Source: Bacteroidales bacterium (GTDB lineage Bacteria > Bacteroidota > Bacteroidia > Bacteroidales > GWA2-32-17). Taken from it: a stretch of DNA of 52,259 bases. Location of the stretch: contig JAOAFV010000038.1 of the NCBI GenBank assembly GCA_026416095.1, positions 1 through 52,259 of the forward strand, given 5' to 3'. The translations under genes and the position numbers were made by a program. The notes under the pieces were generated by a model that ran no database searches, had not been told where the DNA came from, and saw only the letters and a list, made by a program, of their open reading frames with translations. This document shows positions 23,375-43,545 of the stretch, one piece after another; positions within the stretch are counted from its first letter, which is position 1; every line of letters starts with the position of its first letter.

Positions 23375-23521
23375 GTAAAAAAATTTTTCTTGTAAAATAC
23401 AAAAAACTCAATACATATCTTTAGTAGAATTAATTTTCTTCATTAAATAAACCAAAAAAATGCAGCCAATTCACAATTGGCTATTTTTCCTATATACTTT
23501 AATAAATTGTTTACATTTTTA

Positions 23522-23552
23522 TTGGAAAAATTAATAACAAATAATAACTTTG
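23522..23552 (+). promoter_or_regulatory. -33/-7 promoter inside the longest frame of the hybrid kinase
   Basis: TTG at 23522-23524, 20 bases, TAACTTTG at 23545-23552. If real, the kinase cannot start at the TTG at 23477. Confidence 0.45.
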
Positions 23553-23557
23553 TATTA

Positions 23558-25429
23558 TTGAAAACTAAAAGATTAATATCACTTATAAAACCTTTTTATT
23601 TACCAATCATTTTATACATTAGTGGTGTTGTAATAGTGCTTTATTTTGCATACAATTACAAAAAGAATGAACTTAACGAGAAAGAAAATTATAACTTAAA
23701 AAATGTTTCAAAAATTGTAAGTTATATATTCCCTTCATCTACTATTGACTTATATTATTCAGAAAAAAACAATGAAGATAACATAATTTTCTACAGCAAT
23801 TTTTTTAAAAGAATTTCTTTTGAAAATAATATTGAAAGCATAGTAATTTTTACTCTTTTAAACAACGATATCGATATTATAATTCCTTACGCCTCTAAAA
23901 ATAAATTCAAAGAATTAAAAAGTATTACACCAAAATTAAAAAAAAATTTTAATGACAATTTTTTTACTCATAACAATCGTAAGTACTATGTTACGTATAA
24001 TATAACACCCTATGGACAAAAATTTTACATTGCTTTAATAAAAAATCAGAACGAATTAAAAACCACCTTAAAAAAAGAAATAATACGAAATGGATTTATT
24101 GGATTCATATTGACGATATTATTAACGCCTATCATATATCAAATAATAAAATTAGATACTCGTTTAAACAAAAGATTAATAAAAAAAGTTCAGCAACGCA
24201 CAGAAAAACTTTCTAAATTACTTGCTGAACAAAAACAGACTACTATTATGTTGGAAAAATCACTTAAGGAAAATAAAGAACTAAACGAAAAACTAAAAGA
24301 AACTCTTAACATAAAATCAAATATATTGACTACATTAAATCATGAGATAAGAAATCCTCTAAATGTTATAGTTGGAGTAAATAGTTTATTTATGCAAACA
24401 GAATTAACTCCTCAGCAATATGAACTTTGCAAAGCAGTAGAATTTTCTGCAGAAAAAATATTAAATATTTTATCAAACTTGTCACAGTCTTCTCTTATTG
24501 AAAAAGAATACCAAATAGAACATAAAAGTGTTAAAATACCTGAAATAATTAAAAATATTGTCGATAATTACAGAAACATATTAGAAATAAAAAAAATTAT
24601 TATAGAAATAGATTACGATATAAATTTACCATCTTATTTTGAATCTGACGAAACTCTTTTAAGACAAATATTTTTTAACACCCTTGGTTATATTATCAAT
24701 AATTTAGAAGATAGCAAAATCATGATATTTTTAACAGTTGAAAAAATCTTTTTTGAAAGTAATCAGATTTTAGTAAAAATAATAATTACTACAGGAGCAA
24801 TTATAAACAGCAACGAACAAATAAATCAAATAAGAAAATTTTTACAAGAAGAAAATATATTAACCGAAGAATTTAATTTTGGAGTAAATCTTACAATATT
24901 AAAACATATTATTAGAATGCTTAAAGGTACAATAAACATATATAATGATAAAGAAAAGGGAACAACTTTTGAGTTACTATTTCCTTTTAAAATAGGTACA
25001 TCTACAAAATCTCTTACCCAAATTCCTGTTGTTTCTGAAAAACCTAAAAAGTCTTATAATAAATTAACTATATTAGTTGCTGAAGATAATGAATTGAATC
25101 AAAGAATATTATCTCAAATTATAACTAATCTTGGACACAATGTTCTTTTGGCAAAAAATGGTCATGAAGTAATTAAAATAATGAAAAAAAATAATGTAGA
25201 TCTTGTGTTCATGGATTTAGATATGCCTGAATTAAATGGTTTAGAAACAATAAAATATATTAAACAACATCCACAAGAGTTTCTATCACCGAATGTTTCA
25301 ATAGTGGCTTTAACAGCTTATACAACTCAATCTATAGAAAACAAGTGTAAAGAAGTAGGTGTCAAGTATTTTATTAATAAACCTATTAATTTTGAAAAAA
25401 TTAGAGAAATTTTAAACATTTTCACATGA
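23558..25429 (+). CDS. Hybrid sensor histidine kinase with receiver domain, degenerate ATPase motifs
   Basis: Inner-membrane sensor: helix 1 at about residues 14-33, an extracytoplasmic domain of about 145 residues, helix 2 near residue 185, then a coiled coil. The DHp helix carries the phosphoacceptor in LNHEIRNPLN (His codon at 24341-24343). The ATP-binding domain is recognisable in length, but its boxes have drifted: N box as FFNTLGYIINN (second Asn lost), G1 as ITTGAIINS (no Asp), G2 as FNFGVNLTIL. A full receiver domain ends the protein, with Asp in DLVFMDLDMPELNG and Lys in FINKPINF. No ATG exists near the 5' end. The frame opens at TTG 23477, but TTG 23558 is preferred because a promoter overlaps the earlier part and it leaves a normal lead before helix 1. 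Confidence 0.8.
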   Translation: MKTKRLISLIKPFYLPIILYISGVVIVLYFAYNYKKNELNEKENYNLKNVSKIVSYIFPSSTIDLYYSEKNNEDNIIFYSNFFKRISFENNIESIVIFTLLNNDIDIIIPYASKNKFKELKSITPKLKKNFNDNFFTHNNRKYYVTYNITPYGQKFYIALIKNQNELKTTLKKEIIRNGFIGFILTILLTPIIYQIIKLDTRLNKRLIKKVQQRTEKLSKLLAEQKQTTIMLEKSLKENKELNEKLKETLNIKSNILTTLNHEIRNPLNVIVGVNSLFMQTELTPQQYELCKAVEFSAEKILNILSNLSQSSLIEKEYQIEHKSVKIPEIIKNIVDNYRNILEIKKIIIEIDYDINLPSYFESDETLLRQIFFNTLGYIINNLEDSKIMIFLTVEKIFFESNQILVKIIITTGAIINSNEQINQIRKFLQEENILTEEFNFGVNLTILKHIIRMLKGTINIYNDKEKGTTFELLFPFKIGTSTKSLTQIPVVSEKPKKSYNKLTILVAEDNELNQRILSQIITNLGHNVLLAKNGHEVIKIMKKNNVDLVFMDLDMPELNGLETIKYIKQHPQEFLSPNVSIVALTAYTTQSIENKCKEVGVKYFINKPINFEKIREILNIFT

Positions 25430-40276: not shown

Positions 40277-40610
40277 TTATCTAACGCTTAATTATTCTTT
40301 CTTTGCTCTTAATTTAACATTCTTTTCAAAAAGAAATTTAAACTTATAAAAAAAATTATGGCAAAAACAATACATATTCCAAAAAACTAACTGTTACAAA
40401 GATGCAATTAAACTTTAATTATATTATTGAAAAGAGTATTAAATTCTAAAAAATGAAACTACATTGTAAAAACAATCCCCTAATTCTGGTATCAATAGAA
40501 AAGAAAGAATACAATGAAACTTTAAAAAAAATAGTAAAATTAAAAATATTAAATATTTGTTTTAAAAACATAAACATAACATTTGTCAATAAATTTATAA
40601 ATAAGATAAT
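40277..40610. other. Intergenic region with a possible small gene
   Basis: AT-rich. It contains a ten-codon ATG frame (MAKTIHIPKN, 40357-40389), judged too short to call, and the 53-codon frame listed at 40453-40614. No terminator or full -7 match was seen. Confidence 0.4.
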
Positions 40611-40614
40611 ATGA
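40453..40614 (+). CDS. Possible small protein coupled to the pseudokinase gene
   Basis: 53-residue frame MKLHCKNNPLILVSIEKKEY... ending KFINKII. Its TGA stop overlaps the ATG of the downstream hybrid kinase-like gene as ATGA, the arrangement used for translational coupling in the TMTC-purB operon. It is lysine- and isoleucine-rich with no motif that I recognise. In DNA this AT-rich such a frame can occur by chance, so confidence is low. Confidence 0.3.
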   Translation: MKLHCKNNPLILVSIEKKEYNETLKKIVKLKILNICFKNINITFVNKFINKII

Positions 40615-43031
40615 TTGAATTACTTAGTACTTTAAACAAAATTTCGAAAGAACTTGCTGTATCGGTAATAGATAAACAAAAGTCGTTACAAATAATTTAT
40701 GAAAATTTAGTAAATGTGTTAAACATTAAAAATATTATTTACTTTCAATTAGAGAAAACCAATATAACTCCATTATTGGCAGTATTCGATTTTTCAGAAA
40801 AGAAAATAAATGCAGATTTTTATAAAGAAAGTTCTATAAAACAACTAAAAAATGGTATATACGAAGTCAATAAAACAAACAACAATTTTAATTTAATTAA
40901 CGCAAATTACAACAAAATATTATTATCATCTGTTTTTTTAAACAATGAATTACTTGGCTATTTAGCTTTTTATTCAGAAAAAGAAAATTTCAATTTACCA
41001 GAATTAGAACTTATTGAAAACATTTCTTACAAATGGGGAAGTATCATTGGAACTCATGAAAGTTTTCAGATAATTATCGAAAAACAAAAAAATTTTGAAA
41101 ACATTCTTAACAACTTTCAAGACATTGTATTGATTGTAAGCAAAAACGAGAATGTTATATTTCATAATAAAGCATTAACAGAAATAATTGGTATTACCGA
41201 CGAAGAGACGACAGAAATAAAACTTAGTGATATTTTTTTCGAAGAATATAAATACGATTTATATAATGCAATAGACAAAATATTTTCAGGTAGCCCTTAC
41301 GAATTTTGTTATGTTCCTTTAAAATCCTTTAGCAACGATATAATACCTGCAGAATCATTCATTACAAAAATAACATGGTATGACGACGAAAAATTATTTT
41401 TTGTAATAAGAGACTTAAAAAAATACAAAGATATTGAAGAAAAACTAAAGAATGTTCAAGAACAATACGAAAACATAAAAGCTTTGTTTTTTAAAACAAT
41501 TAATGGCTTAAGCTTTTCAATGAGAACTCCTCTTTATTCTATTATTGGAATAGCTGAATTATTAAACAAAACAAATCTTAACTCTCAACAAAAGAACTAT
41601 TTGAATGTTTTAAAAAATGCTGGTGAACAAGCAATTCATTATGTAGAGCAATTGTTTAATATGACATACTTAGAACATGGGAAAATTATACCACAAAAAG
41701 TTGCTTTCTCCCTTAAAAATACCCTGATTAAAATTTTAAACTTATTCTATCTAAAATCAACATTTAAAGGAGTAGAAATTATTTGTGAATATGTTGACAT
41801 AGGAGAAGATTATTACTTACGCGGCGATGAAAATAAATTGTTCTTAATTATTCAAAACATACTTGAATATTCTTTACGTAATACAAAAAAAGGTAAAATA
41901 ATTATAAATATCAACAAAGACGAAAAAAATAATTTAATCATCGATATTCACGATAGTGGCATTATACTTTCACCAGAAAAAACAACCGAATTAATAAAAT
42001 GTTGCAAATATTTAACTCCCTATTTTGATACTGCTACAAAAGAGTTAGAATTCGAATTGACTATTGCATACAACTTTGCAAAATATTTGAACGGAGAATT
42101 TACATTCGAAGGCATTCCTCACTATGGCAATAGATATAAATTAATCTTACCATTAGAAGAAAGTACTTTCAACGAAGTAGAAATTCAAAAAGCAAAATAT
42201 TCTTTTGACATTCACCAAGAAAAACTTGAAAACATTAAAATTTTAATTGTCGAAGACGATATATTTAATCAATATATTTTAAAAGAATACCTTGTTCAAC
42301 TAAATGCAAATATAGATACAGCAAACGATGGGAAATCGGCAATTGAACTACTAAGAAAAAACTTATATTCATTAGTTATAGTTGATATTCGCTTGCCCGA
42401 CATGAATGGAAAGGAAATATTAAATTTTATTAAAAACAATCTACAACCTCCCTATAATAAAATTCCTGTTATCGCTATCACAGCTAATGCCGATATTAAC
42501 GAACATAACGATTTACTAAACTACGGTTTTAACGATACTATAACAAAACCAGCATCTCTTCCAGTAATATACTCTAAGATATTAAAACAAATTGGATATT
42601 CAAAAAAAATTTTCGACGAAAAAATAAAAGAACAAATAAATAAAGTTATTTTTAAAGAAGTTACAGAAGAATTTTACAATCTCGAAAACTTTAAAAGTTC
42701 TTTGAACAACGACACAAAAGCTATTATCAATTTACTTGAAATTTTTATAAAACAAACAACCACTAACCTTGAATTGCTCAATAAAGCCCAAAAAGAAAAA
42801 AACTTAGCAGAAATTGATTTTATTACTCATAAAATGCGACCTTCTTTATCTTTACTAGGAATGAAAAAGGCCGAAGAACTAGTTGCTCTTATAAATTCTT
42901 CGGCCAAAAATAACTTTGAAATTGAACGTATTGCCTCAAATATCTCTAAGTTACAACAAGTATTAATTTTTACTTTTGAATTATTAAAAGAAGAAATAAA
43001 AAAACTTAAAGAGCAATTAAGCAATGGCTAA
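40611..43031 (+). CDS. Hybrid histidine-kinase-like protein without phosphoacceptor His (GAF-PAS-DHp-CA-REC-HPt)
   Basis: 806 residues, no membrane helix, so cytosolic. In order: GAF-like sensor (about 1-155), PAS (about 165-285; IVLIVSKNENVIFHNKALTE), DHp helix (about 290-355), ATPase-like domain (about 395-515), receiver (about 542-665) and HPt (about 690-795). The H box reads SFSMRTPLYSIIGIAELL: the His of the usual SHEIRTPLN is Phe302 (codon TTT at 41514-41516). The ATPase boxes are also worn: NILEYSL for the N box, DSGIILS for G1, EFELTIAY for G2. The receiver keeps Asp592 (VVDIRLPD context) and Lys647 (TKPAS); the HPt keeps His740 (THKMRPSLSLLG). It is likely a pseudokinase scaffold that takes phosphate from another kinase. 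It overlaps the next gene by eight bases. Confidence 0.85.
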   Translation: MIELLSTLNKISKELAVSVIDKQKSLQIIYENLVNVLNIKNIIYFQLEKTNITPLLAVFDFSEKKINADFYKESSIKQLKNGIYEVNKTNNNFNLINANYNKILLSSVFLNNELLGYLAFYSEKENFNLPELELIENISYKWGSIIGTHESFQIIIEKQKNFENILNNFQDIVLIVSKNENVIFHNKALTEIIGITDEETTEIKLSDIFFEEYKYDLYNAIDKIFSGSPYEFCYVPLKSFSNDIIPAESFITKITWYDDEKLFFVIRDLKKYKDIEEKLKNVQEQYENIKALFFKTINGLSFSMRTPLYSIIGIAELLNKTNLNSQQKNYLNVLKNAGEQAIHYVEQLFNMTYLEHGKIIPQKVAFSLKNTLIKILNLFYLKSTFKGVEIICEYVDIGEDYYLRGDENKLFLIIQNILEYSLRNTKKGKIIININKDEKNNLIIDIHDSGIILSPEKTTELIKCCKYLTPYFDTATKELEFELTIAYNFAKYLNGEFTFEGIPHYGNRYKLILPLEESTFNEVEIQKAKYSFDIHQEKLENIKILIVEDDIFNQYILKEYLVQLNANIDTANDGKSAIELLRKNLYSLVIVDIRLPDMNGKEILNFIKNNLQPPYNKIPVIAITANADINEHNDLLNYGFNDTITKPASLPVIYSKILKQIGYSKKIFDEKIKEQINKVIFKEVTEEFYNLENFKSSLNNDTKAIINLLEIFIKQTTTNLELLNKAQKEKNLAEIDFITHKMRPSLSLLGMKKAEELVALINSSAKNNFEIERIASNISKLQQVLIFTFELLKEEIKKLKEQLSNG

Positions 43032-43545
43032 TATTATTTCTTTAAACGGAAAAACTCCCAAATGGGGTGATGATTGCTTTATTGCTTCGAATGCAACTTT
43101 AATTGGCGATGTTGTTATTGGTAATAGGTGTAGTATTTGGTTTAATGCTGTATTACGGGGCGATGTACATTACATCCGCATAGGCGATGATGTTAATATT
43201 CAAGATTGTGCAGTAATCCATTGTACCTACCAAAAAGCTCCTGTAAAAATAGGTAATAAAGTTTCTATAGCTCATAATGCTGTTGTGCACGGTTGTACAA
43301 TTCACGATTATGTACTAATTGGTATTGGAGCAATTATCCTTGACAACTGTGTAATAAACAGTAATAGCATTATCGCTGCAGGAGCATTATTATTAGAAAA
43401 TACAATTGTCGAAGAAGGAAGTGTATATGCAGGAGTACCAGCAAAAAAAATTAAAGATGTAGATATTAACCTACTTAAAAATCAAATTGAACGCATTGCT
43501 AACAACTACTACCTCTATGCAAGTTGGTATAAACAAACCTTATAA
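43024..43545 (+). CDS. Gamma-carbonic-anhydrase-like hexapeptide-repeat protein
   Basis: 173 residues forming a left-handed beta-helix. Hexapeptide repeats run from IASNATLIGDVVIGNRCSIW through NSIIAAGALLLENTIVEEGS. The family's fixed points are present: SIWFNAVLRGDVHYIRIGDD, NIQDCAVIHC, and KVSIAHNAVVHGCTIHDYVL with the three histidines that bind the metal in Cam-type enzymes. It ends with the typical VYAGVPAKKIKD. Whether it is an active carbonic anhydrase or another YrdA/PaaY-type protein is open. It overlaps the end of the hybrid kinase-like gene by eight bases (ATG within its 3' end), so the two are coupled. Confidence 0.9.
   Translation: MANIISLNGKTPKWGDDCFIASNATLIGDVVIGNRCSIWFNAVLRGDVHYIRIGDDVNIQDCAVIHCTYQKAPVKIGNKVSIAHNAVVHGCTIHDYVLIGIGAIILDNCVINSNSIIAAGALLLENTIVEEGSVYAGVPAKKIKDVDINLLKNQIERIANNYYLYASWYKQTL

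Follow-up and report, generated by a model that had tools for sequence, protein, structure and literature searches.

The protein encoded at positions 40611–43031 (+ strand) of the 52,259-nt stretch of DNA analysed here (the window), hereafter the 40611 protein, is an 806-aa chain with no internal stop and the layout of an unorthodox hybrid kinase, in which Phe stands in place of the phosphoacceptor His. From its sequence, and with a probability of roughly 55%, we take it to be a pseudokinase phosphorelay node that would be loaded in trans via Asp592 and His740. This reading is well supported as regards the loss and more weakly as regards the relay, which we infer.

Residues kept and lost

The H box of the 40611 protein reads LSFSMRTPLYSIIG, and the His position is occupied by Phe302, encoded by a TTT codon (41514–41516, + strand); the initial annotation had given both the substitution and the coordinates of the gene correctly. 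It had also described the N, G1 and G2 boxes as worn. Damage is certainly present, but for the most part it amounts to outright loss, since the N-box Asn has become Tyr420, Gly452 of G1 has become Ile (I452) and both Gly of G2 have become Glu (Glu480 and Glu482), leaving Asp448 and Gly450 of G1. The further statement that the receiver Asp592 (codon 42384–42386, + strand) and the HPt His740 (codon CAT, 42828–42830, + strand) are kept was borne out in full, and the partner receiver residues E548, D549, T624 and K646 are kept with them. When seven kinase residues were scored (the H; the N; the D, G and G of G1; the two G of G2) alongside six receiver/HPt residues (E548, D549, D592, T624, K646 and H740), 2/7 of the former were present versus 6/6 of the latter (Fisher p 0.021). 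The same six residues occur in 8/8 other full-length orthologues, and 4/4 of those within reach are present in the partial orthologue L017.

A nearby His serving as acceptor had been named as one finding that would speak against a pseudokinase. In the alignment, none of the nine His in the 40611 protein falls at the acceptor position, and the nearest two, H343 and H356, occur in the window sequence alone. Judged by these motifs, the protein would not pass for an active HisKA-type kinase, in acceptor His or in N, G1 and G2 boxes. It would pass for an unorthodox hybrid, having a histidine kinase core, a receiver and an HPt domain in one chain, with catalytic residues present.

Domain layout

Pfam gives the domain order PAS-HisKA-HATPase-REC-HPt, the HPt falling below its cut-off; all coordinates that follow are on the + strand. 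The PAS domain (residues 161–268; 41091–41414) is a sound call, with PF00989 scoring 27.2 bits against a cut-off of 22.6. Behind it lie the DHp/HisKA helices (residues 298–365, Pfam HisKA 304–357; 41502–41705; PF00512, 37.8 bits, cut-off 26.9) and the CA/HATPase_c domain (residues 405–516; 41823–42158; PF02518, 37.0 bits, cut-off 26.4), from which the N box, half of G1 and G2 are gone. With both of these Pfam models above cut-off, the protein is, on sequence, a member by descent of the HisKA/HATPase_c fold family. The receiver domain (residues 544–656; 42240–42578; PF00072, 77 bits) carries all of the receiver residues listed above. The HPt domain (residues 708–765; 42732–42905) scores 16.8 bits, below the Pfam cut-off of 24.6. 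Its helices appear in the AlphaFold model, and the domain rises above the cut-off in orthologues L037 (30.8) and L041 (25.3).

The initial annotation proposed sensing through both GAF and PAS domains, of which the PAS part stands. The N-terminal region (residues 1–150; 40611–41060) has an alpha/beta layout in the AlphaFold model and gives neither a Pfam GAF match nor a PDB sequence match, and GAF_2 appears below its cut-off (E 0.0047) in a single relative, the g2 orthologue L041. A GAF-like N-terminus is thus tentative, a reasonable guess only. In the AlphaFold model as a whole (pTM 0.33), the individual domains are fair and their overall arrangement is not trustworthy. On a simple Kyte-Doolittle scale, no strongly hydrophobic 19-residue stretch suggestive of a membrane helix was found (maximum mean 1.25). 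The best NCBIfam models were TorS (170 bits), ArcB (159 bits) and BarA (146 bits), all far below their equivalog cut-offs.

Orthologues and the order of loss

The comparison covered ten genomes of the family, the window's own included, with four in the genus, five in group g2 and one (G005) in g3. An orthologue match at E 1e-50 or better was found in 10/10, and the ten genes can be regarded as orthologues because the tree and the gene order agree. Conservation of the H-to-F change among homologues, a check that the initial annotation put forward, turned out to extend across the genus: the acceptor site is aromatic in 4/4 genus genomes (F, F, F and Y, with Tyr in L010), and it is His in 6/6 other family genomes. 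The corresponding codons are TTT, TTT, TTT and TAT in the genus versus CAT or CAC elsewhere in the family, so that a route from His through Tyr to Phe by single base changes would be possible.

Since the genus relatives are without the same key His, a sequencing slip is unlikely, and an evolved pseudokinase is the better explanation. An assembly error as the source of Phe302 is likewise unlikely, with four genomes having an aromatic residue at the site. In a second collection, two different named MAGs (L037 and L038) are gene-identical to L008 and L009, and L044 is identical to L017.

The three genus relatives L008–L010, which are without the His, retain the N, G1 and G2 boxes. The loss of the His therefore preceded that of the ATP site, which followed on the branch leading to the window copy. 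The g3 orthologue L017 (G005; L128:3-1961) has the reverse pattern, in which the His is present, the N-box Asn is replaced by Phe, one G1 Gly by Ser and one G2 Gly by Asp; this g3 case is one gene, cut by the contig end. Such mirror-image combinations, ATP boxes without a His in L008–L010 and a His with N, G1 and G2 each short of one residue in L017, are what could be expected if autophosphorylation persisted on another residue, or if an ATP site were lent to a partner's His in a split or heterodimeric kinase. One study has also reported autophosphorylation of RcsD, which is likewise without the His (PMC3762810), so that His loss alone is no proof of a loss of labelling. Most of the ATP boxes of the 40611 protein are gone, so at most its relatives would be capable of such chemistry, and we regard this explanation as very improbable.

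A tree of 36 kinases (IQ-TREE), whose rows were chosen as the query's best matches and were all read at the seven kinase positions, recovers the genus as one clade (100/100), with g2 as its sister (95/87), g3 next (99/94), then L043 and L045, which have complete boxes, and then L016. When the two long rows are left out, genus, g2, g3, L043/L045 and L016 still follow one another in this order, and the genus-g2 node receives 94/88. All seven residues are present in 30/36 of the kinases. The six exceptions are L003 (the other kinase in the window), L017 and the four members of the genus, which alone lack the His. Because the 36 rows were picked as best matches, how often the His is lost in general cannot be read from these counts. 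The tree requires the His-to-aromatic change once, on the genus stem, and damage to the ATP site three separate times. A topology uniting the window copy and L017 as a single damaged clade is disfavoured (p-AU 0.035). In the tree, the closest relatives are loci of Bacteroidota, and the orthologue records are Bacteroidales/Bacteroidetes MAGs, for example SKW241 (L037) and GWA2_32_17 (L040).

Together, these genes form a stepwise series, from everything kept (g2), through three genus members with the ATP site but no His, to the window copy, where both are gone, with the reverse in one g3 gene. Such a gradient, found in nature, lends itself to the question of what in a hybrid kinase still counts after it ceases to make phosphate, and of why the receiver and HPt residues outlast those of the kinase.

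Other signalling proteins of the genome

Ten distinct kinases were found by profile (E 1e-3) in those loci of the window's own genome that Pfam and protein searches had turned up, the same number as in a whole-genome HisKA search. The His is present in 9/10 of them and the ATP boxes are recognisable in 8/10. A second hybrid kinase in the window (23477–25429, + strand) has the His, with its N-box Asn replaced by Tyr, its G1 Asp by Thr and the Gly of G1 and G2 damaged. Its best matches in 8/9 other family genomes (L133–L140; three of the genus and five of g2) all have complete boxes, and no match was found in G005 at E 1e-40. A third protein, on contig C24 (L131:2259-4892, 878 aa), has a complete receiver and no HisKA or HATPase_c domain by Pfam. 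In the three other genomes of the genus, the C24 protein is best matched by hybrid kinases that have the His and complete or nearly complete ATP boxes, at 26–30% identity, too low to prove orthology.

Across the 40611, 23477 and C24 proteins, 16/16 receiver/HPt residues are present versus 8/21 kinase residues (Fisher p 7e-5, with the C24 core hard to align). Since receivers are generally well conserved, this result is no clean test of function. Two HPt domains were detected in the genome, that of the 40611 protein and a stand-alone 113-aa protein on contig C35. The gene for the latter lies directly behind, and overlaps by 4 bases, that of an intact hybrid kinase with the order CHASE8-HAMP-HisKA-HATPase-REC (L130:2636-4824).

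It is conceivable, if doubtful, that several hybrid kinases of this small-genome Bacteroidales lineage are becoming self-silent relay nodes, with an active kinase, such as that on C35 with its HPt, feeding a shared network. The basis for this idea is that three proteins are without ATP-site residues, two of them also without the His, and have complete receivers. If true, it would mean a shared phosphate network in which sensors steer the flow instead of making phosphate.

Rate of change and selection

Among the three other genus copies, all of which lack the His, whole-gene NG86 dN/dS values were 0.07 (L008-L009), 0.18 (L008-L010) and 0.15 (L009-L010), with dS at 1.8–2.7 and hence near saturation. 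By domain, the L009-L010 comparison gave 0.09 for DHp+CA and 0.06 for REC, again with dS near saturation. Constraint in these relatives is weakest on the HPt, with values of 0.31 and 0.33 against L010. The estimates are rough, yet they are far from neutral and suggest that purifying selection continued after the His was lost.

The window copy has changed much faster. Its dN/dS against L008 is 0.42 with dS saturated, and its end branch in the tree is 3.06 changes per column versus 0–0.37 in its genus. As a protein, it is 32–34% identical to the other genus members, compared with 59% between G002 and the other two. The 23477 kinase has sped up likewise, at 32–34% to genus relatives that are themselves 64–86% identical. 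The two genes that flank the 40611 kinase show no such jump, with the gamma-carbonic-anhydrase-like (gamma-CA-like) gene at 73–75% in the window versus a genus level of 78–79%, and the DUF1571 gene at 45–51% versus 46–49%; the speed-up of the kinase is therefore not common to them. GC content is 0.256 in the window copy versus 0.30–0.35 in the nine orthologues, and the window's genome measures 2.46 Mb, whereas four of the g2 genomes reach 4.3–4.8 Mb and the fifth, 74% complete, 2.3 Mb.

Figures of this kind invite the main rival explanation, that of decay, under which a small AT-rich genome is losing its signalling genes and the 40611 gene is an early pseudogene whose frame is still unbroken and whose receiver and HPt residues are merely slow to change. 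Three hybrid proteins of the genome without ATP-site motifs would be in keeping with it, as would the fast branches of two of them (32–34% versus 59% for the 40611 kinase and versus 64% for the 23477 kinase), the low GC, the small genome and the weak constraint on the HPt. Decay accounts less well for three open frames and for the retention of every receiver/HPt residue scored in those proteins beside 8/21 of the kinase residues. It must also accommodate a His loss common to the whole genus, in which the other three copies have dN/dS values of 0.07–0.18, and neighbouring genes that have not sped up. We consider decay unlikely, though still to be reckoned with, and prefer a pseudokinase relay node.

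Comparison with known systems

The 40611 protein can be likened in its working to RcsD, an inactive kinase with an HPt, and it would combine this with a substitution like that of DivL. In the enterobacterial Rcs phosphorelay, the HPt of RcsD is described as carrying phosphate beside an inactive kinase domain (PMC5651002, PMC13317618). RcsD has an inactive kinase core and a C-terminal HPt, as the 40611 protein would have, its own inactivity being judged from motifs. RcsD differs in being membrane-bound and in having an ABL domain before the HPt, whereas the 40611 protein has a complete receiver and no hydrophobic stretch; the RcsD model NF007907 matches it at 71 bits, against a cut-off of 634.

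DivL, a pseudo-histidine kinase of Caulobacter, is described as having a Tyr at the acceptor site and no autokinase activity, and as sensing a phosphorylated regulator (PMC4211667). With DivL, the 40611 protein shares an aromatic acceptor site (in 4/4 genus genomes, Tyr in one and Phe in three, where DivL has Tyr), PAS input and, presumably, the lack of autokinase activity. DivL differs in being alphaproteobacterial and is described as PAS, DHp and CA only, whereas the 40611 protein adds a receiver and an HPt and has its nearest kin in Bacteroidota.

This likeness raises the possibility of an allosteric partner of the DivL type, whose core would dock on or sense another kinase or a phosphorylated regulator, with its own receiver and HPt chemistry secondary. 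The Tyr of L010 and the Phe of the three others sit at the site of DivL's Tyr. The DHp is also the best-kept domain among the other genus members, at 82% identity between L010 and L008/L009 compared with 65% for REC. Searches of the PDB by sequence and by fold list the kinase regions of RetS and DivL along with many ordinary kinases. The Foldseek list for the AlphaFold model does not decide between the explanations, because ordinary kinases and phytochromes stand in it beside RetS and DivL. A protein that only docks would have no need of receiver and HPt residues, yet every scored one of these is kept. Compared with the other genus members, moreover, the window copy has diverged about as far in its DHp (39% identity) as in its REC (38%), and DivL itself is described as PAS domains with a kinase module (PMC4211667). 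An allosteric role alone thus strikes us as quite unlikely.

The unorthodox hybrid kinases ArcB, TorS and BarA have the same HisKA-HATPase-REC-HPt order as the 40611 protein, which differs from them in being without the H, the N, half of G1 and G2, and in scoring far below their equivalog cut-offs. A likeness to the LadS-GacS network lies in a hybrid protein handing phosphate to another kinase, LadS being described as sending its phosphate through the HPt of GacS (PMC4866733). LadS differs in that its relay starts at its own transmitter His, which, according to the same source, it needs.

Subfamily II ethylene receptors are plant membrane receptors with a degenerate kinase domain and, in some, a receiver. 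Such plant receptors also surfaced in the literature searches, which brought up few well-studied histidine pseudokinases (DivL and RcsD). No prior report of the present pseudokinase family was found among the listed papers on pseudo, degenerate or inactive histidine kinases, Rcs and DivL, a list that mostly leaves out subscription papers. Stepwise loss within one genus, along with two other worn proteins in the same genome, adds to the interest of the case.

A possible route for phosphate

In the preferred reading, that of a pseudokinase relay node, the protein descends from an unorthodox hybrid kinase of ArcB/TorS layout. As the sequences show, the acceptor His gave way to an aromatic residue in the genus ancestor, after which most of the ATP-binding boxes were lost on the window's branch, with the receiver Asp592 and its partners and the HPt His740 retained. 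The protein would then probably no longer be able to load itself with phosphate. Asp592 could instead receive phosphate from the DHp of another kinase or an HPt, with the C35 hybrid kinase and its HPt as the best candidate in this genome. Phosphate might then pass via His740 to response regulators whose genes lie elsewhere, or drain in the opposite direction. The PAS and GAF-like part, together with the retained DHp helices, might set the timing by docking and dimerising. Counting against a relay are the fast window copy, which is like that of a decaying gene, an HPt that falls below the Pfam cut-off and is under the weakest constraint in the relatives, and a neighbourhood that offers no second receiver or kinase.

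Gene neighbourhood

No second receiver or kinase was found near the 40611 gene in the loci of the relatives (L037, L038, L126 and L127), and the sole other receiver in the window is that of the 23477 kinase; relay partners would thus be unlinked. A DUF1571 gene lies upstream of the kinase in all four genus genomes (window, L037/L127, L038 and L126). In the three others, the order is DUF1571, DUF2147-like, kinase and gamma-CA-like, with the DUF2147-like gene identified by Pfam in L126 and by tblastn at 63–64% in L037/L127 and L038. The DUF2147-like gene is missing from the window, where positions 40277–40610 hold 334 AT-rich bases with no tblastn trace of it.

Downstream of the kinase lies the gene for the gamma-CA-like hexapeptide protein (43024–43545, + strand; 173 aa; NF050158, 144 bits, below the cut-off of 250). 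A gamma-CA-like gene is found 3′ of the kinase in 9/10 family genomes. In G005, the odd one out, the contig ends within the kinase, and the gamma-CA-like gene sits on another contig beside other genes. Of 48 listed matches, 30 became loci, and the pair occurs in 0/20 of the readable ones from other families. A functional tie between the two genes was considered and set aside, the pairing being treated as local gene order.

The initial annotation also called the two genes translationally coupled. In the window, the start of the gamma-CA-like gene does overlap the stop of the kinase by 8 bases (43024–43031), and coupling is possible there. As a conserved feature the claim did not stand, for this overlap is peculiar to the window among the nine linked genomes, the other eight having 2–37 bases between the genes.
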